Shown: one piece after another, positions 7,045-51,948 of the stretch | Layout: every line of letters starts with the position of its first letter | How positions within the stretch are numbered: position 1 is the stretch's first letter | IMG/VR virus record: IMGVR_UViG_3300025112_000019 | Location: 1-51,948 of that record | Length of the DNA: 51,948 nucleotides | Source: a virus | Direction: 5' to 3' (one strand) | Translations under genes and position numbers: made by a program | Notes under the pieces: model-generated | What the model was told of the DNA's origin: nothing | The model's database searches: none | The model's input: only the letters and a program-made list of their open reading frames with translations

Positions 7045-8586
7045 CTAGCCGTACAACGGCTTTTTGCGCTTCTTCACCTCGTCGCCACTGTCCCAACCGT
7101 CCTGATCATCGGGATGGGGCAACAGCCACATGTTCCGCAGTCGCAACCAAGCCTGGGTGCAGGTATCCACCAGGTCGGCACCATCACCAGCCGGGAAGAC
7201 CGCGCACTTCTCAATCAGCCCTGTCGCCCAGCGACGGTTCGGGTACCACACCATGCCAGCCTCCAAGATGGCCGACGAGGAGTGGGCCCGGGCCACCTTA
7301 TCACGGTCTGGGCTATATTCTATACAGGGAATGTTGGCCATGCGCAGATCCTGGATCAAGGACTGCCCTGACGCCTTCTTCTCGACCAGGACCGCGTCAG
7401 GCTGCCACTCCATGTAGGCCTCCTTTGCCACCCGGCGAAGGGTCGGGTAGGGCACGTGATCCCGCCACATCTCCAGCACCATGGCATTCTGGTGGCCCTT
7501 GTTCTCGAACACACCCCACGTCGTCCGGGCCGAGAACGAGGCGTCGTCCTTCTCGGAGTACGCGGTGTCCCACGACTGCAGGACATAATCGAACACCGGC
7601 AGCAGCAGGTTGCCCTCGCTGTCCTGCTCATCCCAGCAGTTCCACCAGCTGGCGCGCAAGATGCCGCCGCCCTTGGGGGCTGGCCGCTGCTGCAACTGCC
7701 CAGCCGCCGCGTAGCTGCCCATGCTGTTCTTCAGCCGCTCAAGCGAGTTCTTGTCGAACTGGTCAGGCCACAACAGCTGACCCTCCACCTTGCGCGGGTC
7801 CTTGAACCCAATGCTCGACTTGACTGGAAACGGAAACTTCTTCTCGTACTCGGCCGGCAGCACCAGGTGGTCCCAGTCCTCGTACTCCTCCTTGATGATG
7901 TGGCCTGACAGGTCCCGCTCATGGATCCGCTGCATGATGACAATAAAGGCCCCGGTCTTCGGGTTATTCAGCCTGGACTGCATGGCGTAGTCCCACCACT
8001 CCAGCACCCCCTCACGGGTGACATCTGACTCGGTCTCCGCCACGTTGTGCGGGTCATCGATCAGGATGATATCACCACCCTCGCCGGTCAGTGCCCCGCC
8101 GACCGAGGTGGCAAGCCGATAACCTGACTTGTCGTTCTCATAGCGGCCCTTCTGGTTCTGGTCGCCGGTCATCTCGAACTTATGGCCCCAGCGCTGTTGA
8201 TACCACAGCGACTGGATCAGGCGGCGGCACTTGACATTGTCGCGCACGGCCAGTGGGCCGGCGTATGAGGCCGCCAGGAACTGGATGGCAGGGTTCTGGA
8301 TCCAGACCCAGGTCGGAAACGACACGGAGACCGAGATCGACTTCATGTGCCTTGGGGGGATATTTATAAGGAGCCGGCGTATCTCACCACGGTGCACCGC
8401 CTCAAGGTGCTCACAGATAGCCTGGATGTGCCAACCGTCCACGAACTCCTTGCCAGGCTCCATGATCGGCCAGGCCTGCTTAATGTACTCGTGCAGCGAC
8501 TGCTCAGCCAGCTCCAGCTGCACCTGTTGGAATAAGGCCGACGGGTCAGTGCTGTCAAGCATTGATTGGAGGTCGGTCTGGGTCAT
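7045..8586 (-). CDS. terL: terminase large subunit
   Basis: This is the ATP-driven DNA packaging motor and headful or end-cutting nuclease. In 513 residues it shows an adenine-region GWHIQAICEHL (51-61), Walker A PPRHMKS (77-83), Walker B IILIDD (173-178) followed by PHN, a coupling segment around IVIMQRIHERDLSG, and a C-terminal RNase H-like nuclease part with YVLQSWDTAYSEKDD and AVLVEKKASGQSLIQDL supplying acidic residues. The Walker A has Met where many phage enzymes have Gly, a modest departure. The ATG overlaps the upstream stop by 4 bases, indicating translational coupling. TerS lies further upstream (11216-11635), separated by three other genes. Confidence 0.96.
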   Translation of the reverse strand: MTQTDLQSMLDSTDPSALFQQVQLELAEQSLHEYIKQAWPIMEPGKEFVDGWHIQAICEHLEAVHRGEIRRLLINIPPRHMKSISVSVSFPTWVWIQNPAIQFLAASYAGPLAVRDNVKCRRLIQSLWYQQRWGHKFEMTGDQNQKGRYENDKSGYRLATSVGGALTGEGGDIILIDDPHNVAETESDVTREGVLEWWDYAMQSRLNNPKTGAFIVIMQRIHERDLSGHIIKEEYEDWDHLVLPAEYEKKFPFPVKSSIGFKDPRKVEGQLLWPDQFDKNSLERLKNSMGSYAAAGQLQQRPAPKGGGILRASWWNCWDEQDSEGNLLLPVFDYVLQSWDTAYSEKDDASFSARTTWGVFENKGHQNAMVLEMWRDHVPYPTLRRVAKEAYMEWQPDAVLVEKKASGQSLIQDLRMANIPCIEYSPDRDKVARAHSSSAILEAGMVWYPNRRWATGLIEKCAVFPAGDGADLVDTCTQAWLRLRNMWLLPHPDDQDGWDSGDEVKKRKKPLYG

Positions 8587-11797: not shown

Positions 11798-13279
11798 TCA
11801 TCCTCCTAGCCACTCACGCCATTTATCCCCGAGCACCTGGAACGCCAACTTGTTCTTGGTCACCAGCGCGTCGACCACGTGCTCATCCACCGTGTCCCTG
11901 GCAATCAGGTCCACGTACGTCACCTTGTTCTCCTGGCCGATCCGGTGTGTCCGGTCCTCAGACTGCAGCCGGTACTCCAGGTTATAGCCGTTCGAGTAGT
12001 ATATCACGTTGCTGGCAGCCGTCAGCGTCAGGCCAAAGCCGCCAACCTGCGGGTTGGCCACCAGGAACTGGCTGTCGCCCTCGCAGAACTCATCAAGGGC
12101 AACAACCCGGTTCTTCTCAGATATGCCACCATGCAGCGGGACAGACGGCCTCACCCCAAAATGCTTGCTGATAACGTCAGGCAGCCGGTCTAGGTTATAC
12201 CTGAACGTCGCCCAGATAATCACCTTACCGGTCATCTCGTCCAGCACATCAAGCAGGGCCTGGTCGCGCTGGCTCTCAATGTCCCTGATCAGGCCGTCAT
12301 CATCCTCACGGGTGTGGCCACAGACAATCTGGTGCAGTCGCTGCAGCTTGGTCAGCGCCGTTATGGCCGTCACCGTCTCCTCATGTTCAAGTTCGATGAA
12401 GGCCTCCTTGGCCATCTCGTCATAGGCGTCTCGTTGGGCCTTGGTCAGCTCAACGTCCCTGGTCTCATAGACCTTATCAGGCAGGTCCAGACAGTCAGCC
12501 TTAAGGTGGTGACTGCTGAAGGCCCTCATCTTCTCACGCAGCTCATCCAGCCGTTGGTAGCCAACCACCTTGTTGAAGGACCTGTTGGGCCCAAGAAACT
12601 GCTTCTCAATGATGGCGTACCGGTTCTTGAAGGCGAAAAAGCTCTTGAACCCCAGCAGGCCCTTGTCCAGGAACTCACACTGGGGGTAGACGTCCAGGGG
12701 TGACTGGGTGATCGGGGTGCCGGTCATGATCCGCCTGACCACAACCGAGGCATGCCTGGAAAGCTTGAGCAGCTGCTTGGTCCGCTTGCTGCCTGCATGC
12801 TTGATACAGCTGGACTCGTCAAGCACGAACATCACCCGCTCAAATGAGTTCAGAAACTCAAGCACCCGCTTGAGCCCCTGGCCCTTGGGGTTCGACAGCG
12901 CCTCCACGTTGACCAGCAAGATGGGCAGTTGGTCCTTAGCCTTGTACAGCCCAGCAAGCCTCAGCCTGTCGGCCTTCAGCCAGTAGCTGGTGTGCCACGC
13001 CACATAGGGCTCCTCCTCAAGTGGCCAGTGGGCCGGTATCTCCTTCCTGGCCCAGTTGAGGTACACCCCCTTTGGGGCCACCACCAGGACCGCGTCAACC
13101 CAGTTTTTACAATGATACCAGGCCGCCTGGTCGATGATAACCTTGGTCTTGCCGGTCCCCATCTCCATGAACAGGGCCCAGGCAGGCTTTTTGTTCGACC
13201 TGGTCAGCACGTCCAGCTGATGGTCATATGGCTGCATCTTGAAGCCTCGCCAGCCCTCAGGCCTCTCTTGTTTTGCCAT
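11798..13279 (-). CDS. SNF2-family helicase/ATPase
   Basis: This 493-residue DNA translocase of helicase superfamily 2 belongs to the short phage SNF2 type without accessory domains. It shows motif I MEMGTGKTK (38-46), motif Ia region VVAPKGV, DExx-type motif II VLDES (153-157), motif III MTGTPI, a second RecA lobe with VIIWATFRYNL and PLHGG, motif V NPQVGGFGLTLTAA and motif VI QSEDRTHRIGQ. Such enzymes remodel protein-DNA complexes during replication, recombination or transcription. It starts with the AGAGAGGAGA leader common to early genes, yet sits at the head of the packaging block, just downstream of the repeat array at 13452-13839. Confidence 0.93.
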   Translation of the reverse strand: MAKQERPEGWRGFKMQPYDHQLDVLTRSNKKPAWALFMEMGTGKTKVIIDQAAWYHCKNWVDAVLVVAPKGVYLNWARKEIPAHWPLEEEPYVAWHTSYWLKADRLRLAGLYKAKDQLPILLVNVEALSNPKGQGLKRVLEFLNSFERVMFVLDESSCIKHAGSKRTKQLLKLSRHASVVVRRIMTGTPITQSPLDVYPQCEFLDKGLLGFKSFFAFKNRYAIIEKQFLGPNRSFNKVVGYQRLDELREKMRAFSSHHLKADCLDLPDKVYETRDVELTKAQRDAYDEMAKEAFIELEHEETVTAITALTKLQRLHQIVCGHTREDDDGLIRDIESQRDQALLDVLDEMTGKVIIWATFRYNLDRLPDVISKHFGVRPSVPLHGGISEKNRVVALDEFCEGDSQFLVANPQVGGFGLTLTAASNVIYYSNGYNLEYRLQSEDRTHRIGQENKVTYVDLIARDTVDEHVVDALVTKNKLAFQVLGDKWREWLGG

Positions 13280-13484
13280 GCTCTCCTCTCTTTAGAATGA
13301 TTAAAGCCATCAAGATAGTATCAAATGTTACTAATAGTGGCTCTCAACCTGTAGCCTAACGACAACTGCCTGTCATCTTCCTACATCTTATCACAATTTC
13401 GCAAATCAGCCAACCGACCTTTTTTAGTTGTTCTTTATAATCATTCAAACCTGTCTGGGTAAACGTCCATTCTGTCTGGGTAAA

Positions 13485-13498
13485 CCTAAAAAAATGTG
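13485..13498. promoter_or_regulatory. degenerate CACA-N6-TGTG-type site upstream of SNF2 gene
   Basis: On the plus strand the right half TGTG (13495-13498) is preceded by AAAAAA, but the left half is CCTA. The surrounding AAAAAAATGTGGTTT is a 15-base exact match to the good site at 26402-26415. It lies about 206 bases before the SNF2 start, inside the repeat array. It may be a weak or half site of the same regulator. Confidence 0.35.
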
Positions 13499-13592
13499 GT
13501 TTTACCCAGACAAGAAAAAAGTGAATAAAAACAAGTACTTATCTCTCTTTATTATATATATAATATAATATATATATACTAAGCCTGTACCT

Positions 13593-13746
13593 TTTCTGGG
13601 TAGTCTGGGTAGTCTGGGTAGATCGCGATATCGTGTAGGCTTTTGGCCCCCGGAAAAAACTTTTCCAGAAAAGTCCAGAAAAATTGGAAAAAGGCCCAAA
13701 AAGCCGAGGCAATATAGTTACCCAGACTACCCAGACTACCCAGAAA
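13593..13746. repeat. 28-bp perfect inverted repeat with 98-base loop
   Basis: Positions 13593-13620 and 13719-13746 are exact reverse complements; each arm holds the tandem TCTGGGTA units. The loop contains short palindromes (around TCGCGATATCGTG) and purine-rich stretches. The element could extrude as a cruciform or form a long RNA stem. It is the centre of the larger symmetric array. Confidence 0.85.
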
Positions 13747-13858
13747 TTGTCTCTAAGTGCTTGATCTGATTATCATATTCTTGTCTGGGTAAAATTGTCG
13801 TTTAATTCTTTACCCAGACAGGCCTGGTTTACCCAGACAATCTCCCCTAGATACAGAC

Positions 13859-13888
13859 CAGGCCCGCAGCCACCTGGGCCCGGGCCTG
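13859..13888. repeat. GC-rich 8-bp stem-loop
   Basis: Arms CAGGCCCG (13859-13866) and CGGGCCTG (13881-13888) with a 14-base loop lie at the right-hand edge of the repeat array. Neither strand has a T-run after the stem, so it is not an obvious intrinsic terminator. A second short stem, CTCGACG/CGTCGAG, follows at 13921-13937. The rest of the gap 13840-14001 shows nothing else I can name. Confidence 0.4.
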
Positions 13889-14001
13889 TGAGGTTATTCA
13901 CCTCAAGTTTAACAGGGAGGCTCGACGAGACGTCGAGTGATCAATCACGATCACATGCATAGTAACATGTTTTTTGTGAGAAAAAACAGAAAAATCCTAA
14001 A

Positions 14002-14277
14002 TTAACTCCATTTTCTCTCAACAAACTGGCTGTGCCCACATTGCATGCACGTGGCGTCGATGTCAGCTGGCCCCTTCTCTCGCGCCCTGAGGGCCTGCGC
14101 CACCTTCTTGGTCAACCAATCATAGTTGTCCGACATGCCAGCCTCGACGCGCCTCTGCATGGCCCTAGCTATGTCCTGGGCATGTAGGTGTGCCTCGTCC
14201 ACCGGCGCACGCCTGGTGGCCCTCATGTGGAGGAACCTCACCTCGACCTCCATGAACTTGCCCAGGGTGTCAGTCAT
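14002..14277 (-). CDS. unknown small protein with single CxxC
   Basis: The protein has 91 residues with ATG at 14277. The middle is helical and Ala/Arg-rich (AQDIARAMQRRVEAGMSD). The end carries CMQCGHSQFVE, one CxxC that could be half of a zinc site completed by a partner or a dimer. It is the last gene before the repeat array, so its mRNA would run into that region. I recognise no family. Confidence 0.6.
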   Translation of the reverse strand: MTDTLGKFMEVEVRFLHMRATRRAPVDEAHLHAQDIARAMQRRVEAGMSDNYDWLTKKVAQALRAREKGPADIDATCMQCGHSQFVERKWS

Positions 14278-15620: not shown

Positions 15621-16250
15621 TTAAAGTGATGTCGTGGTAGAGTTGCTGCTGCTGGTAAAGTAGACATGCTGGTAGCGAATCGTCTCGGTCAGGCTTCGGT
15701 AGTTCTTGAGCTCATGCCTGACGGCCACGCAGACCCTGACCTTCAGCTCGAGATCCTCGACCTGGTCGTCGCACCTTCTTATCTGCTCGTTGGTGATTGC
15801 CTCGAAGATGTTCGGCTTCTTGTCGTCCCTGGTGATCCTGTTGATGATCTTTTTCAAGAGCGTTCGCCTCTCCCGGACCTGGCCCAGGGTTTCGCCGTGG
15901 TCGCTACGGCTCTGCTCGATGACCTTGAGCATCGCCTCTACCAGGTCGACCTCGGCGTTGAACACAATCCCGGCCTCGATGGCCTGGGTGTACAGGGTCG
16001 CCAGGTCAGCGGTGACCCGCTGGGCCATGGTCAGCTCGGCCTGTTCACTGTACTCGCCATCTTTGTCGTATTTCCTACGGCGGGCCTTGTCCCGCAGGAC
16101 CTTGTAGGCCAGGTCGACCTCGCGGAACCTCTCAGCACTGCCACCAGGCATGTCAGGGTGCAGCTGCTTTGCCAGCCTACGGTGGGCGGTCTTGATGGTG
16201 GCGTCTGACGCGTTGCGCCTGACCCCGAGAATTTCATACAGGGTTTTCAA
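15621..16250 (-). CDS. J-domain (DnaJ-like) protein
   Basis: In 209 residues, positions 2-65 form a J domain: LYEILGVRRNASDATIK, a helix II ending in LAKQLHPDMPGG with the HPD signature at 31-33, and helix III FREVDLAYKVLRDKARRRKYD. The J domain stimulates ATP hydrolysis by host DnaK and so recruits the chaperone. The rest is helical and charged with no Gly/Phe or zinc-finger region, so this is a class III J-protein with its own targeting tail. The TTG start overlaps the primase stop as TTGA, preceded by AGAGGA. Tight coupling suggests it serves the replisome, for example by remodelling initiation complexes as lambda replication uses DnaJ/DnaK. Confidence 0.9.
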   Translation of the reverse strand: MKTLYEILGVRRNASDATIKTAHRRLAKQLHPDMPGGSAERFREVDLAYKVLRDKARRRKYDKDGEYSEQAELTMAQRVTADLATLYTQAIEAGIVFNAEVDLVEAMLKVIEQSRSDHGETLGQVRERRTLLKKIINRITRDDKKPNIFEAITNEQIRRCDDQVEDLELKVRVCVAVRHELKNYRSLTETIRYQHVYFTSSSNSTTTSL

Positions 16251-18553
16251 AACGGAATATCCTCTTCATGGTGGCCGCGCATGCCGGTCAGGTCGAGCTC
16301 GGTCACCGCGTCCCAGTCCAGGGCCTTGCCAAGCTGCTGCTCCATGAAGATCCGGCAGCCCTCAAGGTCCTCGATCGTGTAGCCCCAAGCCCGCTTGACC
16401 TCGCCCTGGCCGTACTCACCTGGCTGCTCCAGCTTGACCCGTAGCTGGACACCAGAGCTGGCGGTGTCCGGGATCATCCGCCTGAGGCGGCGTGTAAAAT
16501 GAACCTGGTTCAAACGGCGGTTGATCCCGAGCTCCTTCATGTCGTCGATGTAGGCTTGGTGCAGGCTTGCCGTCACGACGTGACTGCCCCACTCGCAATG
16601 GGCTGGCAGCTCGCCCTCCCGAAGGAGCTTGAGCCACCAGCCCAGCTCAGGGGGTAGACTCTCCAGCTTCTGGTTGACCAGGCCACGGGTCATTGGCACG
16701 TCGCGAATGTCCCGGCCTGAGTAGTCCCGGTGCATCAGCTCGTGGAGCATGGCCTCGTAGCCGCCGTTCGTCAGCTCCTTCTGGATCTTGCCGAAATAAA
16801 CCCGGTCCTGCATCTTCTTGTCCGACACCTCAAACACCGCAAACCGGCGTTCTTCCAGGCCTGCCGGCACTACCCACTCATTGTTGCTGGCGACGATGAT
16901 GTGTAGCATGTTCCTAGCCTGCACGACGTCACGGCCCTTGCCCTCGATGGTCAGCGTCGGCTCCGTGATGATCGTCTTGAGGACCCCCTCCCCCTGCTTG
17001 TCCCCAGCCCAGAATGCCTCATCAGCAAACAAAAGTACGCAATCACGAAGATGCTGGTTGAAATGACCAAGAATATGCTTAGGTTGGGATACATGAAGAA
17101 AATGCTGGCCAAACAAATGACCGAGAGCCCGAGCAAGGATACCCTTACCGACTCCTCTCTTTCCCTGGAGCACCATCGCGACCTCGGCCTGCTTGTCAGG
17201 TTCCTGCACAGCATGCGCCATCCAGTCGAGGACCCACCCCGCATGTTCCTTGACGCCATGACATACCTCCATAAGAATGTGATCCTTGAGTGTGTCCCAG
17301 CTGCCCTGTACCGGGTCAACCCGGAAGCCCTGCCACAGGTTGTAGTGGTCCGGTGGGGCGTCGCCCTTGGGGACAAACACCAGCCGCTCGAACTGCCGCC
17401 GCCGTGAGTGGGCCAGCCACCAGCTGCCTAGCTTGGCGGTCTGCGGGTTGCCCTGGGCGTCGAACCCGATCAGGACCTGTTGGTTGCTGAAGAAGTCCCG
17501 GAACGCCGTGAAGCTCATCATGTGGTGCATGCGTCGGTCCATGGCCTCGTCCCAGCACTCCTCGGCCACGACCGTCTTGTTGCCGTCCTTGATGACGAAG
17601 TAGCGCTTGTTTATGTCGGTGATGGCCTGCTCGGCGTCGTCAGCGCCAGGTGGTGGCGGGGCCGACTCGTTGGGGTCGGTGGTGCTGGCCTCGTTGATCA
17701 GCTTGCGGACCGCCTCCTCACCGTCCCGTTGCAGGACGTCGTTGATGTCAGTCTTTTCCTCGCCGTCGTAGAGGGCAGGCCGGCAGGTCAGCACCTTGAC
17801 GCCCTGGCGCCTGAGCTTGTTGAGCTGTTTGGCCGAGGCCTTGGCCGCCTGGCTGTCAGGCGGGTCATGGTCGAGGACGACGATGACCTCGGTGCCAGCC
17901 GGTATCTTCAGCCTGCCAATGTTGGTCTGGCCCAGGGCCGCGATGGTCTGGTTGCCGGTGGCCTGCCAGACTGACAAGGCGTCCTCGACCCCCTCAGTGA
18001 CGCAGATGGGGGCGTGCCCTGGCAGCAGGACCCCGGCGCCGTCGAGCTTGCCGGTCGTCTTACGCTGGACCTTTAACGGGGCTTTTTCCCCATCGTCGAG
18101 GAAAAGCTGTTGATATCCTTGTATGACACCTCCGTCGGAATATGCAAGGCCGACCATGGCGCCATAGGTCTTACCGGCGAGTTTTCTGGCGGCGGGCTGG
18201 TATAGGACTGTTGGTGGAGGTAGGGCTGTAATCCCACGGCCAGCAAGATACGCCGCCGCCGGGCTCTTTTCAACAGGGACAAGTTGTTTGAGTAGGTCGG
18301 CATGTTTTCCTGCTCCGTTTACCTTGCCACGTACCTTGTGCGCGGTGCCATCCCAGAGGTCGCGCTTGGCGAGGACCGCCATGATGTCGTCGCGCTCGCA
18401 GCCGGCGTAGCACATGACCCCAAGGCTGCCGTCCGGGTTTTCCCAGAGCGATAGGCTTGGCTCGCTGTCGTCGTGCGACGGGCAAAGGCATGACCAGCCA
18501 TTACCGGCCTGCCGGCCCTTCAGCTGCCGGGCGATTTCTTCAATTGTTGCCAA
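16247..18553 (-). CDS. primase-helicase (CHC2-TOPRIM-P-loop)
   Basis: This replication protein has 768 residues. It has an N-terminal zinc-binding part (CLCPSHDD and CYAGC, residues 22-52), a TOPRIM domain with TEGVEDALSVW (186-196) and LDHDPPDS (227-234), an acidic Pro-rich linker near 290-305, and a superfamily 3/D5-like helicase domain. The helicase part shows Walker A GKRGVGKG (464-471), Walker B CVLLFADEAFW (505-515) and sensor region IIVASNNEWVVP. It should prime and unwind at the fork. The C-terminus is HHEEDIPF, nearly identical to the acidic tip of SSB proteins. The J-protein overlaps its 3' end, and a CACA-N6-TGTG site lies 42-55 bases before its start. Confidence 0.95.
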   Translation of the reverse strand: MATIEEIARQLKGRQAGNGWSCLCPSHDDSEPSLSLWENPDGSLGVMCYAGCERDDIMAVLAKRDLWDGTAHKVRGKVNGAGKHADLLKQLVPVEKSPAAAYLAGRGITALPPPTVLYQPAARKLAGKTYGAMVGLAYSDGGVIQGYQQLFLDDGEKAPLKVQRKTTGKLDGAGVLLPGHAPICVTEGVEDALSVWQATGNQTIAALGQTNIGRLKIPAGTEVIVVLDHDPPDSQAAKASAKQLNKLRRQGVKVLTCRPALYDGEEKTDINDVLQRDGEEAVRKLINEASTTDPNESAPPPPGADDAEQAITDINKRYFVIKDGNKTVVAEECWDEAMDRRMHHMMSFTAFRDFFSNQQVLIGFDAQGNPQTAKLGSWWLAHSRRRQFERLVFVPKGDAPPDHYNLWQGFRVDPVQGSWDTLKDHILMEVCHGVKEHAGWVLDWMAHAVQEPDKQAEVAMVLQGKRGVGKGILARALGHLFGQHFLHVSQPKHILGHFNQHLRDCVLLFADEAFWAGDKQGEGVLKTIITEPTLTIEGKGRDVVQARNMLHIIVASNNEWVVPAGLEERRFAVFEVSDKKMQDRVYFGKIQKELTNGGYEAMLHELMHRDYSGRDIRDVPMTRGLVNQKLESLPPELGWWLKLLREGELPAHCEWGSHVVTASLHQAYIDDMKELGINRRLNQVHFTRRLRRMIPDTASSGVQLRVKLEQPGEYGQGEVKRAWGYTIEDLEGCRIFMEQQLGKALDWDAVTELDLTGMRGHHEEDIPF

Positions 18554-19941: not shown

Positions 19942-20244
19942 TCAGTCTCCTATTTCCCAATCATCAGCGACAAGGTCATCCAGTCTCGGATTCCAGGGCC
20001 AATCTCCGAGGTAGATTGTCTCATCTCTCAAGTGGAGGCCGGACTGCTTCATCTGGATTGGCCAGGATGTACGGCAAGCGGTCATGCCGGTGGCGAGGGA
20101 CCGAAGGAGGTGCGGGATGTTGAGCATCCGGTCACGGTCCTTGTCCTTCAGAAAATCCGGCCACCAGGGGCCTTCCTTCGCAATTGGCCCCGATGCCATC
20201 ATCTGGTCAAAAAACTTTCGTATGGCTTTTCTTCTAGTGACCAT
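19942..20244 (-). CDS. 100-residue unknown protein
   Basis: ATG at 20244 is preceded by TTTTGGAGGGTTGATCA, a strong ribosome site. The product starts MVTRRKAIRKFFDQMM and has several tryptophans (GPWWPDFLKD, DWPWNPRLDDLV) and an acidic C-terminus. It leaves one base before the lipoprotein gene. No family recognised; a soluble early protein. Confidence 0.6.
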   Translation of the reverse strand: MVTRRKAIRKFFDQMMASGPIAKEGPWWPDFLKDKDRDRMLNIPHLLRSLATGMTACRTSWPIQMKQSGLHLRDETIYLGDWPWNPRLDDLVADDWEIGD

Positions 20245-21222: not shown

Positions 21223-21780
21223 TTATTCTGCCCTCTCGATCGTGGCCTTCTGGCCGATGAAGCCGTTGAACATCTCCAGCGGCACGGCCTCGCCCTTGGT
21301 GAGCTGCTCCCGCAGCCAGGCCTGCAGCGTCTGCGTGTGGACGCTTTCCTTCGCGGTGTAGTTGTACCCCTGGGCCTTGAGGTCCTCGAGCAGCTTGGCA
21401 GCCTTGGCGTCCTCATCCTTGCCGAAGTCTGTCTTGACCTGGTTTTTGATCAGGTCCCCGTGCCCGTTGTCGCGCAGCCAGGCCAGGGACTCCTCCCCCT
21501 TGGCCCCGGCCGGGATGCTGGCCCGGTAAAATGGCTTGACCTTGACCTTATTGCCGTTGCTCAGCGGCACCTCACCCATCCCAATCTCGGTCAGGGCCTC
21601 GGGCAGGTCGACCGTGCTGACCTTCTGGTGCTGGGCCTTGAGCTCCTTGACCCTGCCCTCCAGGTCCTCGATCTCGTCCTCGATCTTTGTCTGGAACTCG
21701 GCCAGGTTGGCGATCTTGGTGATGGCGTTGCCACCAACCACCTCGACGTCCTTGCTGTCTGCCTCAAAGTCGATGGTCAT
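21223..21780 (-). CDS. conserved early phage protein, coiled-coil N-terminus
   Basis: The protein has 185 residues. Residues 20-55 form a coiled coil (AEFQTKIEDEIEDLEGRVKE). A small domain follows with EVPLSNGNKVKVKPFYRASI and a segment around ESLAWLRDNGHGDLIKNQV. This pattern recurs beside SSB-like genes in marine phages, but I do not know a demonstrated function. A recombination or replication accessory role is possible. It overlaps the ThyX stop by 4 bases (ATGA). Confidence 0.65.
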   Translation of the reverse strand: MTIDFEADSKDVEVVGGNAITKIANLAEFQTKIEDEIEDLEGRVKELKAQHQKVSTVDLPEALTEIGMGEVPLSNGNKVKVKPFYRASIPAGAKGEESLAWLRDNGHGDLIKNQVKTDFGKDEDAKAAKLLEDLKAQGYNYTAKESVHTQTLQAWLREQLTKGEAVPLEMFNGFIGQKATIERAE

Positions 21781-22436
21781 TGGTCTTCTCCTATGTCACC
21801 GAACAGGATTGGTAGCCTATCCTTGAGCTTGGCCAATAGGGGCCTCATCAGGTCCTGCATCTGTGGGTGCGCCGCCTTGGCGGCGCGCAAGGTCAGAATG
21901 TGTCGCCACTCCCGAATGTTCGCCGTGACATCGATCTCCGTCTTGAGTGAGTTGGGCAGGACGGCGCGTGCCTCCTGTGGCTTGGCGTCGGCGTCAAGCA
22001 TCTGAAAGTAAAACCCTTCAGCCTCCAGCATGGCATTATGCCAGGCCCTTTGATCGATAGTCAGGATATCAGGAACTCCATCATCCCACCCAAACCATGA
22101 CGGGATGATAAAGGTGCACTCGCCCCCGAACTTGCCGTCGGCGTAGTTACAATAGCGTGTGCTCTCCTGGGCAAAGGCCGCGATCCGATGACGGACCAGC
22201 TCATGGGTGACGCCGCGGTCAGTGATGAACCGGACCCGTAGCGACTGGTGCTCGAGCATGGCGTGGTGGCCACGGCTGATGATCGACGCCACCAGCTTGT
22301 CTGCCGTGCCTGTATCGATCTTGTCCTCTGACTTGTAACAGAGGCGGGTGGACCGCTCCAGCTCCTCCATAATCCGACCGGCATTCCAATCGTTCAAGGG
22401 CGTCAGGATCTCATACGACTGGTGAATGAGCCGCAT
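21777..22436 (-). CDS. thyX: flavin-dependent thymidylate synthase
   Basis: ThyX makes dTMP from dUMP with FAD, NADPH and methylene-tetrahydrofolate. The 219-residue product from the ATG at 22436 (after GGGAGATACTGAG, overlapping the previous stop) has the ThyX signature RHRIAAFAQESTRY, matching R-H-R-x7-S, and the upstream HHAMLEHQSLRVRFITDRG. The C-terminal part has EWRHILTLRAAKAAHPQMQ. The length is normal for the family. An upstream extension to 22511 is in frame but lacks a ribosome site. A ThyA-family gene also lies at 28751-29620, so this phage has both folds; ThyX is the better candidate for true dTMP synthesis. Confidence 0.94.
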   Translation of the reverse strand: MRLIHQSYEILTPLNDWNAGRIMEELERSTRLCYKSEDKIDTGTADKLVASIISRGHHAMLEHQSLRVRFITDRGVTHELVRHRIAAFAQESTRYCNYADGKFGGECTFIIPSWFGWDDGVPDILTIDQRAWHNAMLEAEGFYFQMLDADAKPQEARAVLPNSLKTEIDVTANIREWRHILTLRAAKAAHPQMQDLMRPLLAKLKDRLPILFGDIGEDQ

Positions 22437-22437
22437 C

Positions 22438-22644
22438 TCAGTATCTCCCGTCGAGCCTGGAGACCACGTCGAGCACATGGGCCGCCTCAGGATTTTTGTT
22501 GAGTACCTCAAGTGCCTCCTCGATCTGGGCCAGCTGCTCCTTGAGGGCGTCTCGCTGTATGGTCAGCCGCTCGGTCACACTGGGCCTGGTAAGCGTGTGG
22601 CCACCCAGCATGGCAGCCTGCTTCTGGCCCTCTATCTGTGTCAT
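22438..22644 (-). CDS. 68-residue coiled-coil protein
   Basis: ATG is preceded by the common early leader (AGAGAGGAGAAG). The product has a polar N-terminus and one heptad helix (RLTIQRDALKEQLAQIEEAL). It is likely a dimerising small protein. It precedes ThyX with an overlapping stop/start. No family recognised. Confidence 0.6.
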   Translation of the reverse strand: MTQIEGQKQAAMLGGHTLTRPSVTERLTIQRDALKEQLAQIEEALEVLNKNPEAAHVLDVVSRLDGRY

Positions 22645-24529: not shown

Positions 24530-24826
24530 TTAGATCATGCTGGCCAGCTTGATCACCAGCTCCTTTTTGTTGGCCTCGGCAGCGAGCTGGATCATGTCGA
24601 TGATCTCCTTCTGCTCCAACCCGTTTCCGCTGCACTTCCCGTTCAGCCCTATCAAGGCCCACTTGGCAACCTCAGGCACCTCACCTTGCCTGATCCAGGT
24701 ATCCCAGACACTGTAGCCTGAGTAACCGATAGCCTTCATCACCTTGTCGATACTTCCAAGGCAATTTACTGCGTCAGACATCATAGCATCAACAGTAAGA
24801 ACGCCGACCTTTTTGGATCTTCTCAT
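24530..24826 (-). CDS. possible HTH regulator (YdaS/Cro-like)
   Basis: The 98-residue protein begins with basic residues (MRRSKKVGVLTVDAMM). Around 22-60 it has CLGSIDKVMKAIGYSGYSVW followed by DTWIRQGEVPEVAKWALIGL. The pattern of a short helix, a turn and a recognition helix with W-x-R-x-G-x-x-P resembles Cro/YdaS-type helix-turn-helix proteins. The C-terminus is helical. The AGAGAGGAGAG leader precedes it, and a strong terminator follows, so it may be the end of a regulated unit. A DNA-binding role is likely but not certain. Confidence 0.55.
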   Translation of the reverse strand: MRRSKKVGVLTVDAMMSDAVNCLGSIDKVMKAIGYSGYSVWDTWIRQGEVPEVAKWALIGLNGKCSGNGLEQKEIIDMIQLAAEANKKELVIKLASMI

Positions 24827-26417: not shown

Positions 26418-28304
26418 TTAATTTATCTTTTTAATCTCACCCCAATTAGGCCCCAGCTCCACGTCCACCTTCAAGGGGACCTCCAGCTCCATGCAAGTCT
26501 CCATGATCTCAGCCTGCTGCCGGGCCTCAGCCTCGCTCGAAACTGTCGAGTCGAGCTCGTCGTGCAAGGTCAGGTGCAACAAGCCAGCTTTTTCGCGGTG
26601 ACACAACACCATCGCCCGCTTGATCATGTCGGCCGACGAGCCCTGGATCAACTTGTTGAGGGCCTTGAACCCGAAGGTCCGACGCAGATGCGAGTTCGGC
26701 CACTGACGCTCGGCCTCCTCCCGGCGTAAAGGTTTCTCGTCGTCGCGCATTTCGCCGTAGGGCGGCTCCCAAAATGGAAAGTGGCATCGGCGTCCTCCTA
26801 GGGTTATGATATAGCCTCGGTCCTCAGCAACCTCAGTGCATTTTTTCGCCAGGCCCTTGACATACGGCACGGCCTCGTGATAACCGTCGTAGACGTGACC
26901 AGTCTCACCAACGGGCACCCCTGCCTGGATGAGGTTGGTCTCCATCAACGCCCGTCCCATCCCGTACGCTGCCCCAAGATTCAGGGTCTTGGCTGGCTTG
27001 CGGGTGATGCCGGCCATGTCTGCCACCAGCTGATGGTAGTCGGTGTCAGGGTTGTCGACATACCGCTGTTTAGCGACGGCTGCCCCGATCATGTTCATCA
27101 GGACCGCGTAGTGGACCGTGACACGTGGCTCCTGCTGACTGTAGTCGTTGCAGCACCAGATGCCACCCTCCTCCGGGATAAACATCCGCCGGATTATGCC
27201 GGCAATTTCTGGGTTGTTCTCGGTTGACGGCATGGTCTGGAAGCCAGACGACAGGCGACCAGAGACGGTGCCGCCCTTGTCGTCCTTGACCTGGCGAAAT
27301 TCCGGGTGGACGTGGTCGCCAACCACCTGCCTGAGGATCATGTTCTCGAGGTAGGTCTTACGGGCCTTGTGGAGCTGTCGGCCCTCAAGGACAAGTGGCG
27401 ACAGCTCGTCTGTCTGCAGCTCTAGCCACTCCTTGGGAAAGCTACCGTTGCCGGCGGCAGTCTTGTTAAACGGGATGCCCAGCCTGCTGTAGGCCCTGGC
27501 CATCGAGACATGCGAGTGGATGTCGACTTCCCCGGCGAACTTGGCGATCCTATCGAGCACCTTTTGCTCACGGGCCACGAAGTCATCTCGTGTGGCCTCT
27601 ACCTTGTCAACATCCACCCGCACCCCGGTGAAGCGCATCTCAAGCAGCACCTCAATCAGGTCGCATTCCAGCTCGAACACACGCCACAGGTCCTCGGCTA
27701 TGAGCTGTTCTTTTTGTTTCTCCCAGATCCGTAGTGGCAGCTCAGCGTCGGCCTCGCCGTAGGGCCCGACGAAGGCTGCCGGAAGCTTCCACAGTCCTGA
27801 CTTTGGGTCAACACCATAGGTAGTCGCTGCCTCGCGCAGGAGGGTCTCGTCCTTGCCCTCGCCGAGATATTCCAATGACAGCGCCTGCAGGCTGTAGGAA
27901 CGCTTGTACTCATCGATCAACGGCTCCGCTACCTGGATGTCGTAAAATGGGCCCTGTGGCCTGATGTCCAGCGTCCGCAGCCACTCTAGGTCGTAGATGA
28001 TCTTAGCGCCGACCTTAGGGGTCTTGGTGCCTAGCTGCTCCCTGGTGTATCTGATGACCTTGTCTCGGTCAAGGTTGCCGCCACCAGCGTGCGCGATGGG
28101 GTAATACCGACTACCGTGTTCCTTGGTAGCCAGGGCAATTCCAACAACCTCACCATCACCCCTGGCGCCACCTGGACCGAGGTCCATGAGGTTGGGGTCA
28201 CGTGTCTCAAGATCGACTGAGATTTCTGGCGCATTACGAAGATCCGGGTAGTCCTCAGTGGGGGACCATGTCACCGCCGGCGTGAATAAAGGCAGTTGGC
28301 TCAA
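26418..28304 (-). CDS. polA: family A DNA polymerase with 3'-5' exonuclease domain
   Basis: The replicative polymerase is 628 residues long. The N-terminal exonuclease domain shows motif I SVDLETRD (29-36), motif II GAKIIYDLEWLRTLD (99-113) and the motif III region YSLQALSLEYLGEG (137-150). The polymerase domain shows motif A CNDYSQQEPRVTVHYA, motif B RKPAKTLNLGAAYGMG and motif C LHDELD. In motif B the position equivalent to E. coli Phe762 is Leu. The start is TTG at 28304 with GAGGGAG upstream. It overlaps the deaminase gene by 50 bases in another frame, and the CACA-N6-TGTG site follows its stop. Confidence 0.95.
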   Translation of the reverse strand: MSQLPLFTPAVTWSPTEDYPDLRNAPEISVDLETRDPNLMDLGPGGARGDGEVVGIALATKEHGSRYYPIAHAGGGNLDRDKVIRYTREQLGTKTPKVGAKIIYDLEWLRTLDIRPQGPFYDIQVAEPLIDEYKRSYSLQALSLEYLGEGKDETLLREAATTYGVDPKSGLWKLPAAFVGPYGEADAELPLRIWEKQKEQLIAEDLWRVFELECDLIEVLLEMRFTGVRVDVDKVEATRDDFVAREQKVLDRIAKFAGEVDIHSHVSMARAYSRLGIPFNKTAAGNGSFPKEWLELQTDELSPLVLEGRQLHKARKTYLENMILRQVVGDHVHPEFRQVKDDKGGTVSGRLSSGFQTMPSTENNPEIAGIIRRMFIPEEGGIWCCNDYSQQEPRVTVHYAVLMNMIGAAVAKQRYVDNPDTDYHQLVADMAGITRKPAKTLNLGAAYGMGRALMETNLIQAGVPVGETGHVYDGYHEAVPYVKGLAKKCTEVAEDRGYIITLGGRRCHFPFWEPPYGEMRDDEKPLRREEAERQWPNSHLRRTFGFKALNKLIQGSSADMIKRAMVLCHREKAGLLHLTLHDELDSTVSSEAEARQQAEIMETCMELEVPLKVDVELGPNWGEIKKIN

Positions 28305-28758
28305 GGTTCAGCTCCCTCTTGCTAATGAAATGCCAGTGCCGTCCCTGGCTTGTCCACTGGGCCTTGGCCCGTTCGGTATGCTCTGAGGCGTATTCCTCTG
28401 AGAACACCATCCGCCCGGCCGACGTGGCCATCAGGGCGTTGACGCACGTGATGCATGGGCTGACGGTGCAGTAGACCGCCGACACCAGCATGTTGTTGTG
28501 GCACGAGATCAAGGCATTGATCTCAGCGTGGATGGCGCCGCACAGGTCGAGGCCCTGGCCTGGTGGCTGCTCAGCCCCTGGGCACGGGGCATCAATGCAG
28601 TGAGGCATACCAGGTGGGTTGCCATTGTGACCAGTGGCCAGGACCCTGTTTGCTGGGTCCACCAGCACGCAGCCGACCTGCCTTCGCACGCAGGTGGCAC
28701 GGGTTGCCACCTCGTGGGCAATGCGCAGGTAATATTGATCGATGCTAGGTCTATTCAT
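28255..28758 (-). CDS. dcd: dCMP deaminase
   Basis: This zinc enzyme converts dCMP to dUMP, the substrate of thymidylate synthase. In 167 residues it has the deaminase zinc signature: HAEINAL (His ligand and catalytic Glu) and SPCITCVNALMA (two Cys ligands). The N-terminal part RATCVRRQVGCVLVDPANRV and GHNGNPPGM are typical of deoxycytidylate deaminases of the T4/ComEB type. The gene overlaps the ThyA-family gene by 8 bases. With ThyX, the ThyA-family enzyme and the kinase fusion it forms a pyrimidine-nucleotide cluster. An allosteric site cannot be judged. Confidence 0.93.
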   Translation of the reverse strand: MNRPSIDQYYLRIAHEVATRATCVRRQVGCVLVDPANRVLATGHNGNPPGMPHCIDAPCPGAEQPPGQGLDLCGAIHAEINALISCHNNMLVSAVYCTVSPCITCVNALMATSAGRMVFSEEYASEHTERAKAQWTSQGRHWHFISKRELNLEPTAFIHAGGDMVPH

Positions 28759-29620
28759 CGTATAACCCCATTAGCCAGTCTTGGCCATAGGCCTCGTGAA
28801 TGTATTGACGGGCAGTGCTGCTATGTGTGCTGGACATTTGTAGGTACTCAATCAGGTCGAACGGGTCACCCTCATCATACCACCTGGTCATGTTGATTTG
28901 AACGCTTCTTGTCTCTTCATCAGTGGCCACATAGACCCCAGCGTCCAGGCAGTCGTTCACCTTCTTCCAGTTTTTCTCGTAGAGGTGGGCCGAGCCTGGG
29001 GTGATCCGCAGGTTACCAAGCTTAAGGCCGACGCCGCGATTTTTGTTGAGCAACATGGCCACCAACATGGTGATGCAGGTGAAGTTGAAGGCATCATATG
29101 GGATGCCGAGCCAGGCATCTGACGACCGCATGGTCACCAGGCAATGCAGCCGGCCACCACGGATCAGCCACTGCATCGCCACGGTGCACGGCACGTCCCT
29201 GCTGCCTGGTGGGTTGGGCCGCCAGATGGTCATGACCGCCTGCCGTGAGTTGTCGTCCAGGGCCAGGTTTTGCACCACATACATCAACTGATCGATGACC
29301 TGTGGGCCATACGCCCCGGCGAACATGTAACCATCGTCGGAAAACTGCTCGATATTTTTAGACAGATCCTGCATCTCCCGGAGCCGGTTAGAGCCAGATA
29401 GGATCCAGGCCGCCTCGCCCGCCATGAACCGATAACCCAGCTTGCGGCCAGGGTTCAGCAAGACCGGGTAGTTCATGTCGAATGTAAACGGCCGGCCGAG
29501 CAGCTCCACGGTCGCCATGTCGCGCGGCTTGGAGGCGGCGCCATGGATCATAATGTCACGGATATGCGAGATCCAGGCCTGGTCGATCAGCTCGGCACGA
29601 GCATCAATTGGAAAGTGCAT
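28751..29620 (-). CDS. ThyA-family enzyme, probably pyrimidine (dCMP) hydroxymethylase-like
   Basis: The product has 289 residues from the ATG at 29620 (after GAGGAGCTTAAAG). It keeps the thymidylate synthase framework: Glu69 in GEAAWILSGSN, catalytic Cys145 in DVPCTVAMQW, R165-S166-x-D168, and H212-x-Y214 in SAHLYEKN. The position that recognises the pyrimidine in ThyA (Asn177 of E. coli, in PFN) is Asp176 here, in LGIPYDAF. T4 dCMP hydroxymethylase has Asp at the matching position, which selects cytosine. With ThyX already present, a hydroxymethylase making 5-hydroxymethyl-dCMP is the best reading. A relaxed or dUMP-specific enzyme is possible. Confidence 0.8.
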   Translation of the reverse strand: MHFPIDARAELIDQAWISHIRDIMIHGAASKPRDMATVELLGRPFTFDMNYPVLLNPGRKLGYRFMAGEAAWILSGSNRLREMQDLSKNIEQFSDDGYMFAGAYGPQVIDQLMYVVQNLALDDNSRQAVMTIWRPNPPGSRDVPCTVAMQWLIRGGRLHCLVTMRSSDAWLGIPYDAFNFTCITMLVAMLLNKNRGVGLKLGNLRITPGSAHLYEKNWKKVNDCLDAGVYVATDEETRSVQINMTRWYDEGDPFDLIEYLQMSSTHSSTARQYIHEAYGQDWLMGLYDE

Positions 29621-30620
29621 CTTTAAGCTCCTCAGCGTAGGTTGAGACGTCACTGTGATCGAACCGCCTGGCATGCTGCGGGTGCCGGATTTTTTCATGG
29701 AAAATGTGAAGATCATGCAGCTTGCTGCTGGCGTTAGCCCCCAGGGCGATGACCTTTTTGCAGTTGTCGGCCACCTCCTTGAGCTGCTCAGCCGTGGTCC
29801 CTGGGTCATTGGCGTTCATGAGGCACATCTCCTCCTCAGGGATGTAGGCAGCATGCAGGGCCTTGGTCAGATACAGGCTGCAGCCGCCGTTCTCATAAAA
29901 CGGCCAGTTGAGAATGTGCTTCTTGCCGCTGACGTCACCTACCAAGAGGGTAGATCTGTTCCCCACCCGGCCGGCCAGGTTGCCCCAGTTGGGGTTCAGG
30001 CCTGGCTGATAGGTCAGCCCGTCCCTAACAATCTCCAGGCAAGAAAGCAAGCCCTTGACACAGGACTTAATGTCCTTCTTGGGGTGCTTGGCGATGTCAT
30101 ACTGAAACCAGTGAGTATCAGTGATGACGCCCCCCAGGGCCGCCAGCTGCTCGGCGTAGCTGCCGGTGTTGGGCCTGGTGACCGAGCCGTGAACCAGGTT
30201 CAAAAACCGGTCTGAGACCTCGGACACATCAGCATACATCTCATCCCGACTTTTCTTTAGCTCACGGTGGTTTGCCACCACCATCTCGGTTGGCGGCGCC
30301 GCAATCACGTAGATGGCCCCAAACCGCAGGAGCATTCTATGCATCATCCGGGTGGCAATGCCGATGCCCACGCCATCGCGGTAGGTGTCGGCATAGATGT
30401 TTTCGCTCGGCCACAGGCGATCGACGACCACGGTCTTGATGTCTGACAGCGCGATGGCGTTGATCAGGGCGTCGGTCTGATACCGCCACATGTCCCAGGT
30501 CGGGTCGAAGGACAGGTGCATATACTTGCTCTTGTCCTCGCCAACCTCGTCACAGATGGCCTGGGCCAGGGTGGTCTTGCCAGTGCAATCACACCCGTCA
30601 ATTACAATAATGCCGGTCAC
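29604..30620 (-). CDS. thymidylate-kinase-like domain fused to uracil-DNA-glycosylase-like domain
   Basis: The product has 338 residues with GTG start at 30620, overlapping the previous stop (TAGTG), with GGAG upstream. Residues 1-200 are a nucleoside monophosphate kinase: P-loop GCDCTGKTT (9-17) and VVVDRLWPSENIYADTYRDG (64-83), matching the thymidylate kinase DR(Y/H) motif. Residues 222-325 match the uracil-DNA glycosylase superfamily plan: STLLVGDVSG (family-4-type G-E-x-x-G, here G-D-V-S-G), WPFYENGGCSLYLTKAL, LMNAND, KKVIALGANASSKL and RHPQHARRF (the H-P-x-x-x-R-R end). The kinase could phosphorylate modified dNMPs. Whether the second domain excises, binds or modifies bases is unknown. 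Confidence 0.75.
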   Translation of the reverse strand: MTGIIVIDGCDCTGKTTLAQAICDEVGEDKSKYMHLSFDPTWDMWRYQTDALINAIALSDIKTVVVDRLWPSENIYADTYRDGVGIGIATRMMHRMLLRFGAIYVIAAPPTEMVVANHRELKKSRDEMYADVSEVSDRFLNLVHGSVTRPNTGSYAEQLAALGGVITDTHWFQYDIAKHPKKDIKSCVKGLLSCLEIVRDGLTYQPGLNPNWGNLAGRVGNRSTLLVGDVSGKKHILNWPFYENGGCSLYLTKALHAAYIPEEEMCLMNANDPGTTAEQLKEVADNCKKVIALGANASSKLHDLHIFHEKIRHPQHARRFDHSDVSTYAEELKDALSN

Positions 30621-33119: not shown

Positions 33120-33210
33120 CGTCTTATTCCTCTCTTCTCTCTAAATGTGGGCACCAACTAAGAGAAATTGGCTTCTTAGGTTCCGCTAGGTTTCTGTGGT
33201 CCGTTGGCGG

Positions 33211-33746: not shown

Positions 33747-35939
33747 TTATTTGGGCTGCTGCTGCGGCCCAATATACCGCCGTCGCACCTTGCCTCGTAC
33801 CATTGGCGACATCGACCGGTACAGCTTCTCGAAGGCTGGCGACCTCGGGAGAATGTCAGTGACTGGCGGCTCAAACATATACTTATTGACGTCCTTCTCA
33901 ACGTCCTTGACCATCAATAGATGGGATAGCCCCATAATCCCTGCCTCAGTCGATGGGGCAAGTTGTTGGAGCTCCTTTAACCTGGCCAGGCCGGTCTCAC
34001 TGGTAATCAGATCTGCCATATTGTTAAAATAGCGACCCTGCAGGATGCCGCGTACATAATCAGTCATTCGTGACGGTGTTCGCCAAACCTCCAGCGAGTC
34101 AATCAGTGGGAAGATCAGGGCTGGGGCCCCACCAAGCTGGTTCTTCTCAGACGCCCTTTCAAGGGCCTTGAGCCCTGCCTGGTTATAGGCCGTCAGCGAG
34201 CCCTCGTTCATTGCCCGCCCGGTCGCCTCCAGGACGTTGGCCAACCACCTCATGGTCTCCTGTATCTCAGGCCGGTCCTCCAGGGCCGCGTTGATCAGCT
34301 CCCGGCGCTTGGACTTGGCAGGCCCGAAGATGGCGTTATAGAATGTCTTCCCCACGTTGACCACAGACCTGTTGGCCTCATCTGGAACCTGGTCGATGCC
34401 CTCCTGAAGCCAGGAGCGTAGCAGGCCATAAAACTCCTGCTCACGGTCTGCCTTCTTGAAGGCCTCGCGCAGGGCCCTGACCGTGGCAACATCTGAAATA
34501 TCAGACTGAAAGGCGTATCTGGCGGCACGGAGCACGTTATCACCCTCGAGCCCGGCGATACGCCCGGTGGCTCCCTTTTCCAGGGCCGTGACCTGTGGCA
34601 TCCCCTCCTCATAGGTTTTGCGGGCCTCAGCATATCTTCCCTCGGGAAAATCTGGCGTCTTGGTTGCCTCATTCGCCTTGTCCACCATGAACTTGCGGAA
34701 GGCCTTCAGATGGTTGATTGTGTCAGTGTCGACTGCATTGCGTGGATCTTCACCCCACTTGACCTGGGAGTCGATGATTTTTTTGACGCGGTCCAGACCC
34801 TCGACCGAGGTGTCCGGCACCGTAATATGCCTGGGCGAGTCAGGAACATTTGGGTCATAGTCAGGGTTATTTTCACGGCGATAAAGGTGCTTGCGGATTG
34901 CCTCGAGTGCGTTTCGCTGCGGTTCTTTCAAGCGATTGTTATCGAGCAGGCGGTCGAGCTCGCCAAGAATTTCTGGGGTATCAACCTCATCAATCTCCTT
35001 GGAGGCGTCATAATGAGGTTTAGCTTGCTTTCTTATTTCATCTTTTTCAATTTCGATAGCCTTTTTGGCGGCGTCACTTGCTGCCTGCCTCGCCTCAAAA
35101 GTGGCCTCACGAGGTGCTAAAGCGCCTAGCGCCTCATTAACGGCCTTGCGGACCTGCGGATTGCGGACATCTCGCATCCACTCGATAATTACATCGGCTG
35201 ATGGTTCAAGGTTTTGTAGGTGCCGTTGCTGGGCCACCAGTGACCGCAACCCTGTGGCCTCGGCTGGAGTCAAGGTGATCCCAAACCGCCGCTTAGCCTC
35301 ACGTGAGAATTCTTGAGCGGAGGCCAAGGCTTTGCGACTGAAGTCACGCACCAAACCTCGTTCCATAAACATTCCGAACAGCTGGGCAACGCCTTCGGCG
35401 CCACCCTCCTCGGCTGCCGCCATAATCACATCGAACGGCACGACCTTTTCATCAGTCATCTTAGAACGGAGGAAATCATACGCCGCCCCAACCGTGGCAG
35501 CTCCAGCCAAGGCACCCTTCTTACGGCCCATGCCTAATTTTTTACCGATCGCCGCCCCAACTGCCCCAGCAACACCTTGGGTGTGCTCTGCCCCTGAGGT
35601 GGCCAAAGCTGACGGGGCGTTCTTGATGTTTTTAAACAACCGGTCCATCAGGTCCGACCAGCCTGAGGCGCTAAACATTCGAGGGGCCTTGACCTCGACC
35701 TTGTTCAACTGGCCAGCATCATCCTCATAAACTAAGTCACCTTGATATAAACCGAAACGCTTGCGGGCCTCAGCCTGATCCATGTCTGGGAAAAAATGCT
35801 TGGCAAAAACATTGACCTTGTTCTCAAGCAGCCGTGGCCATGACGCTTCGAGCCGGACACCAGCTGGCGCATCTTCCTCCATGCTGGAGGTTATAAGCGG
35901 CTTGCGAGGCCCGCGAGTAAATTTAGGGCGTTGGGCCAT
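33747..35939 (-). CDS. large internal virion / DNA ejection-type protein
   Basis: The protein has 730 residues. After a basic start comes a Gly/Ala-rich amphipathic segment near 112-158 (TQGVAGAVGAAIGKKLGMG, then GALAGAATVGAAYDFL) that could insert into a membrane. FGITLTPAEATGLRSLVAQQ and a long helical, charged region with DAAKKAIEIEKDEIRKQAKP follow. This design recalls P22 gp16-type ejection proteins, which leave the capsid with DNA and cross the host envelope. No lytic transglycosylase motif is visible. It is the last of three such genes at the end of the virion block. Confidence 0.65.
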   Translation of the reverse strand: MAQRPKFTRGPRKPLITSSMEEDAPAGVRLEASWPRLLENKVNVFAKHFFPDMDQAEARKRFGLYQGDLVYEDDAGQLNKVEVKAPRMFSASGWSDLMDRLFKNIKNAPSALATSGAEHTQGVAGAVGAAIGKKLGMGRKKGALAGAATVGAAYDFLRSKMTDEKVVPFDVIMAAAEEGGAEGVAQLFGMFMERGLVRDFSRKALASAQEFSREAKRRFGITLTPAEATGLRSLVAQQRHLQNLEPSADVIIEWMRDVRNPQVRKAVNEALGALAPREATFEARQAASDAAKKAIEIEKDEIRKQAKPHYDASKEIDEVDTPEILGELDRLLDNNRLKEPQRNALEAIRKHLYRRENNPDYDPNVPDSPRHITVPDTSVEGLDRVKKIIDSQVKWGEDPRNAVDTDTINHLKAFRKFMVDKANEATKTPDFPEGRYAEARKTYEEGMPQVTALEKGATGRIAGLEGDNVLRAARYAFQSDISDVATVRALREAFKKADREQEFYGLLRSWLQEGIDQVPDEANRSVVNVGKTFYNAIFGPAKSKRRELINAALEDRPEIQETMRWLANVLEATGRAMNEGSLTAYNQAGLKALERASEKNQLGGAPALIFPLIDSLEVWRTPSRMTDYVRGILQGRYFNNMADLITSETGLARLKELQQLAPSTEAGIMGLSHLLMVKDVEKDVNKYMFEPPVTDILPRSPAFEKLYRSMSPMVRGKVRRRYIGPQQQPK

Positions 35940-50969: not shown

Positions 50970-51948
50970 TTAATACAACCGAACGTAAGAGAAGGCAGAA
51001 TAGCCATTAGCATCTTGAAATGTGCCGACTGTATTAGCGACGCTGGCTTTACCTTGCAGTCTAACCTCATCTGCACTATCAAACGTCACGATCCAATGAC
51101 AATGAATTGTTGCATTCACAAGCCCCTGTGTTGTCTCAGTAATCTCCAACGCCATCCTAATAGTATTGGAAATAGCCGCTGTATCCGACTGGTTGTACAG
51201 TTGGACTGCCGACCAAGCCGCCGCATCCCCATCATGGATCATTCTCATATCTGCTAAAATTAGATAGGTTCCGGCAGTTGGTAATGTAAAAGCCATATTC
51301 GTAGCATCGATGTCGGCAAAGGACGTACCAAAATGATCTGGTGCATCTGCCATATCAATCGAAAGAGCCGCCGCGTTATCGACACGCTTCGTGGTGTCGT
51401 ATAAAATCTCACCAGCGAATGTGGCGTTCTGAGAACTGTCTAGGGTGAGGGCATCGGTCATCGTGCCGGATGCTGGACCCGCCGTGCTGAACACCAACCG
51501 CCCTTGCTCAGTGCCATCGGTCGGGCTTTCGATGAAAGCATCAATCTTGGCATAACCAATAACATTTCCGCCACTGTCTTTGCCGAGCCAAGACAACTGA
51601 AAGATACTGTCGTCAGCCGCCGGACTGGCGCTGTTGCGATACAGATTAAGTCGCACATCAGCATTAGCCGCATCAGAGGCTTCAAATGTTGCTTGGGTGC
51701 CACTGGTACCGGATGTATTGAGCAAGCCAGAAGTGCCACTGAATGTTGCTGCACCAGCCGTGACAGTCCCAGCGAATGTGGTGGGATCGGTATTATGCCC
51801 AATCGTAATTGTGCTTGCACTATCGTCGTATAGAAGAATGTTGTTAATGCCGCTTCTAATCTGAACATCGTTAGCTGCGGCATGACCGGCGCCATAAAGC
51901 CAAATATTTCCACCGTCGCTGTTTCCATTCCCGCCAGCGATAGTCACG
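50970..51948 (-). CDS. tail fibre protein, 5' end outside window
   Basis: An open frame of at least 325 codons enters from the right edge. The first visible codon that could start (GTG at 51947) lies inside the protein by appearance, so the N-terminus is missing. The visible part is built of short beta repeats typical of trimeric fibres (TPATFAGT-type strands such as DPTTFAGTVTAGAATFSGTS). It ends in a compact jelly-roll-like tip (MAFTLPTAGTYLILADMRMI and FDSADEVRLQGKASVANTVG) like C1q/TNF-type or other receptor-binding heads. It is the first gene in transcription order here and probably determines host binding. Confidence 0.75.
   Translation of the reverse strand, partial: VTIAGGNGNSDGGNIWLYGAGHAAANDVQIRSGINNILLYDDSASTITIGHNTDPTTFAGTVTAGAATFSGTSGLLNTSGTSGTQATFEASDAANADVRLNLYRNSASPAADDSIFQLSWLGKDSGGNVIGYAKIDAFIESPTDGTEQGRLVFSTAGPASGTMTDALTLDSSQNATFAGEILYDTTKRVDNAAALSIDMADAPDHFGTSFADIDATNMAFTLPTAGTYLILADMRMIHDGDAAAWSAVQLYNQSDTAAISNTIRMALEITETTQGLVNATIHCHWIVTFDSADEVRLQGKASVANTVGTFQDANGYSAFSYVRLY

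Follow-up and report, generated by a model that had tools for sequence, protein, structure and literature searches.

The array of twelve repeats in this phage DNA is most likely the origin at which its replication starts, although origin activity was inferred and not measured. The repeats are probably iterons recognized by the predicted winged-helix domain at the C-terminus of the phage's own Toprim-SF3 primase-helicase. In related marine phages with AEP primases, the core of the repeat motif co-varied with one small patch of the primase, the predicted wing of a C-terminal winged helix, which suggests a rapidly evolving lock and key.

The repeat array and its genomic context

The window, that is, the whole stretch of 51,948 b that was analyzed, is an IMG/VR record. 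Twelve exact TCTGGGTA units were confirmed in it at 13452-13839, in the strand order ++- +++ --- +--, and six of them are the exact 12-mer TGTCTGGGTAAA, for which 0.004 occurrences are expected in the whole window. Since only 0.01 units are expected in 388 b, chance is excluded (Poisson P about 4e-33). Outside the array only two further TCTGGGTA were found, with a shuffle mean of 1.2 for the whole window. The inner triplets repeat every 9 bases and form a perfect 28-nt inverted repeat. The preliminary description had presented the array as symmetric. The strand order does read the same on both strands, but for 8 elements this alone has a 1/16 chance, and although the start-to-start spacings (21/28 on the left and 27/19 on the right) are nearly mirrored, the outer and inner groups are separated by about 82 b on the left, where the A/T-only tract lies, and by about 36 b on the right. 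The symmetry is therefore partial. The array lies in a gap of 722 b, and no other clear non-coding stretch above 500 b was seen in the ORF lists, although the tiling was mechanical.

All of the identified genes are on the minus strand. Read on that strand, the order is DNA polymerase A, dCMP deaminase, thymidylate-synthase-like genes, Pam3 gp32/33/34-like genes, the Toprim-SF3 primase-helicase, DnaJ and small genes, the array, an SNF2 helicase, a TerS-like gene, TerL and portal. Head and tail genes resemble those of the Roseobacter phages CRP-901/902, whereas the primase resembles that of Mesyanzhinovviridae such as YuA. The coordinates of the features are collected in the table.

Table. Features of the window related to the repeat array and its surroundings.
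Position	Strand	Feature	TCTGGGTA units at
13280-14001	.	non-coding gap holding the whole array
13452-13463	+	outer left iteron A1, TGTCTGGGTAAA	13454+
13473-13484	+	outer left iteron A2, TGTCTGGGTAAA	13475+
13501-13512	-	outer left iteron A3 (inverted), TGTCTGGGTAAA	13503-
13548-13578	.	A/T-only tract of 31 b, candidate duplex-unwinding element
13593-13620	+	inner triplet at 9-b pitch, left arm of the 28-nt inverted repeat	13595+/13604+/13613+
13621-13718	.	98-b segment between the inner arms, with A-tracts GGAAAAAACTTTTCC
13719-13746	-	inner inverted triplet at 9-b pitch, right arm	13719-/13728-/13737-
13782-13793	+	outer right iteron, TGTCTGGGTAAA	13784+
13809-13820	-	outer right iteron (inverted)	13811-
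13828-13839	-	outer right iteron (inverted)	13830-
7045-8586	-	large terminase (TerL), 61% to Roseobacter phage CRP-901
11216-11635	-	small-terminase-like protein (weak; phrog_15261 3e-9, phrog_10899 0.03; no helix-turn-helix found)
11798-13279	-	SNF2-family helicase, ATG at 13279, directly next to the array (same neighbour in L350, YuA and CN1)
14002-14277	-	next gene beyond the gap
15621-16250		DnaJ-domain protein encoded directly after the primase-helicase
16247-18553	-	Toprim + DUF5906/SF3 primase-helicase, 768 aa, predicted initiator
16247-16768	-	primase-helicase residues 596-768, predicted winged-helix DNA-binding domain (pLDDT 84)
16376-16453	-	predicted wing beta-hairpin of that domain (about residues 701-726), predicted to read the iteron by analogy with the AEP primases
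19942-20244		weak match to the Tad2-like anti-Thoeris domain (E 1e-4, below the Pfam cut-off)
21777-22511, 28255-30620		two thymidylate-synthase-like proteins, a dCMP deaminase and a thymidylate-kinase-like protein, as in YuA-type phages; the DNA may carry modified thymine
24530-24826		XRE-like protein
1-2736 and 50970-51947		window ends, both inside minus-strand reading frames; the record may be a nearly complete circularly permuted genome cut within one gene

Arrays of the same build in related phages

A nucleotide search for near relatives in phage records and a search for the exact triplet in IMG/VR gave nothing. Relatives were then scanned for 8-mers repeated at 9 bases with inverted partners, and many arrays were obtained (loci of relatives are designated here by L and a number). 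These arrays share the build of doublets or triplets, inverted partners and an A/T-rich flank, and lie at the same boundary between replication genes and helicase or packaging genes, but the motif differs between phages. In marine phages related through the helicase, the arrays lie just upstream of TerS, with units such as CTCGTTACA, CTGGTTACA, CTCAACACA, CTTGTCCCA, TTGTGACAC and TTGTATCAC, while a flank like ACCATTTTTCAAAAATTTTTTCC stays as the unit changes. In the arrays of L063, L069 and L033 and other AEP-primase loci, a conserved A-tract AAAAACTTTTT and a GAAAACACTATA-like box follow the right triplet although the iteron motif itself changes. Terminase relatives carry TGGTTTCG pairs about 107 b apart, 2-2.5 kb upstream of TerL. 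Repeated CTAGGAAAA units upstream of TerS in Pelagibacter phage HTVC023P (11680-11775) are possibly another array of this kind.

Among the SF3-primase relatives, TTGACTCG was found in L350, CTGACTCC in L393 and AAGTTAAG in L353, L358, L364 and L386. These six scored 19.5-34.5, against a best of 13.5 in shuffled copies of the 80 loci. L350, the closest SF3-primase relative with an array, has primase, array, an ORF, SNF2 helicase and TerL in the same order as the window. A last IMG/VR scan with the window and L350 primases gave no further close relative. The preliminary description had set the absence of the array from related phages as evidence against its interpretation, and this was only half observed. 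The nearest isolates by terminase, CRP-901/902, lack the array upstream of TerS, but they also have a different replication module. The closest IMG/VR terminase (L076, 89%) stops 0.5 kb upstream of TerL, before the array region.

Interestingly, YuA and Bordetella phage CN1 carry the same AAGTTAAG triplet array twice, upstream of the SNF2-like helicase and upstream of TerS (621-651 and 33158-33190 in YuA; gaps 1-707 and 34664-35304 in CN1), which a single-origin model does not predict. In YuA both arrays lie next to annotated promoters and precede the helicase and the terminase operons, and in L029 a TTGACA-17-TACTAT promoter-like sequence lies beside the array. An operator array, bound by a phage-encoded regulator (possibly the primase itself or an XRE-like protein) to control the early and packaging operons that start here, was considered, but is unlikely as the sole explanation. 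Only weak promoter-like matches were found in the window gap (5 versus 1.5 expected), triplets at 9-base pitch in dyad order are not explained by it, and the co-variation described below points to the primase wing rather than to a small regulator encoded nearby. A dual role as origin and operator is not excluded, and an operator alone remains possible.

GC skew in the window does not turn at the array. The GC-skew minimum coincided with the array in two genomes with divergent operons (18,688 vs 18,720; 5,342 vs 5,370) but not in the others, and it is confounded by gene strand.

Motif variation and the primase wing

L063 and L069 are 97-98% identical DNA, yet their array units change in concert from CTCGTTAC to CTGGTTAC. 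Their primases differ only by F114L, A242T, E470R, N476K and H505Y, two of these changes (E470R and N476K) being radical and six residues apart near the end of the protein. Looking for a specificity gene in the region where the two loci are non-homologous gave only large proteins that look structural. Downstream of the array, a cytosine-C5-methyltransferase-like gene is open in L069 (2364-3350) and frame-broken in L063 (2211-3345).

ALTERNATIVES. A pac site, at which TerS would bind the array and start headful packaging, could be suggested by the position of the array immediately upstream of TerS in dozens of marine loci and near the packaging block in the window. However, TerS is 100% identical over 181 aa between L063 and L069 although the array units differ, TerS windows did not track the motif (p = 0.13), and the TerS-like protein of the window shows no helix-turn-helix match. 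This alternative is therefore considered very unlikely.

To further examine which protein reads the array, more primase loci were fetched and all primase windows were tested against motif distance, controlling for overall primase distance. In 34 marine loci, the top six of about 170 nine-residue windows all lie at residues 470-495 (r up to 0.485; mean 0.02, sd 0.14). With near-duplicates removed, the maximum was still there (max-r permutation p = 0.027). TerS, the SNF2 helicase, gp33-like and UvrD were not supported as reader, although another control protein, gp34 (Pam3_Gp34-like), was borderline (p = 0.03).

The comparison of matched pairs was clearer. Of the primase changes in pairs with different motifs, 9 of 17 (L252/L268), 8 of 20 (L246/L236) and 5 of 7 (L030/L035) fall in a 21-residue stretch, while the same-motif pairs L030/L046, L314/L316 and L054/L055 have none of 16, 20 and 6. 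Over the close pairs, 26 of 57 changes fall in these 21 of 513 residues when the motifs differ, versus 1 of 51 when they are the same (Fisher p = 3e-8; p = 3e-5 for all chosen pairs). Motifs were aligned by hand and pairs were chosen after seeing the pattern, so these p-values are optimistic, but the window scan was not guided to the wing. The stretch is the wing of a predicted winged helix. One locus contradicts this pattern: L039 has the primase of L030 with an L035-type array, and its identity to the two parents switches near 1.8-2.2 kb, so it is a recombinant or an assembly chimera. In the primase of L037 (same in L230) the reading frame departs from the family inside the wing (NPDGNASGQKSSRGLM...), giving a 552-aa product, due to a sequencing error or a real frameshift.

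The predicted initiator and related replicons

The C-terminal domain of the window primase-helicase is predicted as a winged helix. Its structural neighbours by VIA-align include RFX with DNA (Z 5.7), archaeal Orc2 (5.7) and Orc1, and the phage P4 origin-binding domain 1ka8 (4.6). The fold matches are all below Z 6, a level that shows a common arrangement and not function. Foldseek searches gave no E below 0.001, and no sequence-level PDB relative of the domain was found (weak RFX5/ARID2 hits, E 0.4-0.8). It is inferred that this domain reads TCTGGGTA. The co-variation was shown for AEP primases without a helicase domain, not for the SF3 class of the window, in which too few arrays are known.

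By analogy with the replicons discussed below, the winged helix of one subunit would sit on each TCTGGGTA, and the two inverted triplets, helped by the outer singletons, would nucleate two oppositely oriented SF3 rings. These would melt the neighbouring A/T-only tract, and the fused primase domain would lay the first primers, giving two forks. All of the steps after recognition are inferred. In the AEP-primase relatives no helicase domain is fused (AEP-TOTE plus PriCT_1 only), and a separate helicase must be recruited. A purely structural element, in which the inverted repeat acts as a hairpin or cruciform (e.g., a single-strand priming signal or terminator) with no sequence-specific reader, seems very unlikely. 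The inner segment does fold far better than shuffles (z = -9), and a stem-loop origin read by an AEP-SF3-winged-helix protein has been proposed for plasmid pRN1 and phage BIP-1 (PMC4234260). Nevertheless, a hairpin needs complementarity and not twelve identical units, the outer units repeat the same 8-mer in both orientations, and in relatives such as L037 the left arm is only loosely complementary while the right triplet is exact.

Therefore, the reading of the preliminary description that iterons plus an AT-rich element suggest an origin is the best supported, and it is held with reasonable, not full, confidence. It would locate the origin and name the initiator for a large set of uncultured marine phages and for Mesyanzhinovviridae such as YuA, for which no origin was found named in the family paper searched (PMC11946847). 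The natural pairs of motif and wing residue would provide a candidate recognition code. More tentatively, and somewhat less likely than not, the iterons and the wing that reads them may diversify fast and in step across several lineages of tailed phages, even between phages that are otherwise 97-99% identical. This would be a modular origin-specificity system under diversifying selection, perhaps to escape satellites or rival phages that borrow the replication machinery, and would include AEP primases that lack a helicase domain and act as origin-recognition proteins.

The principle of such an origin is known. The carriers (tailed phages, including those with helicase-less AEP primases), the dyad layout at 9-base pitch and the rapid co-diversification are not described, as far as the open-access papers found here show. 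The preliminary description stated that no named system with this arrangement was known, but related arrangements exist in PICI/SaPI origins and in the phage P4 ori. In the PICI/SaPI replicon, a self-loading primase/helicase reads short, element-specific iterons near its gene through its C-terminal domain, as described for SaPI Rep and Cch2 (PMC7581432; Ubeda et al., 2007, as cited therein), and E. coli PICI origins always have two iteron sets flanking an AT-rich region (PMC6092414). Here the array is found in a tailed phage, with 12 units in dyad order including 9-base triplets, next to the packaging block. It is not directly 3' of the initiator gene as in PICI/SaPI origins, but about 2.4 kb past it with small genes between, although the directly 3' position is found in L350. 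Relatives also include AEP primases without a helicase domain.

The phage P4 alpha protein likewise combines a Toprim primase, an SF3 helicase and a C-terminal winged helix that binds origin repeats, and then unwinds and primes (PMC4234260). No sequence-level match to it was found, and P4 is a satellite, whereas this is a phage with its own structural genes. Finally, pRN1 ORF904 and the stem-loop origin of Bordetella phage BIP-1 (PMC4234260) share a primase, an SF3 helicase and a C-terminal winged helix acting on a dyad element, with two rings proposed. Those authors found a stem-loop without iterons, while here the dyad is made of iterons.
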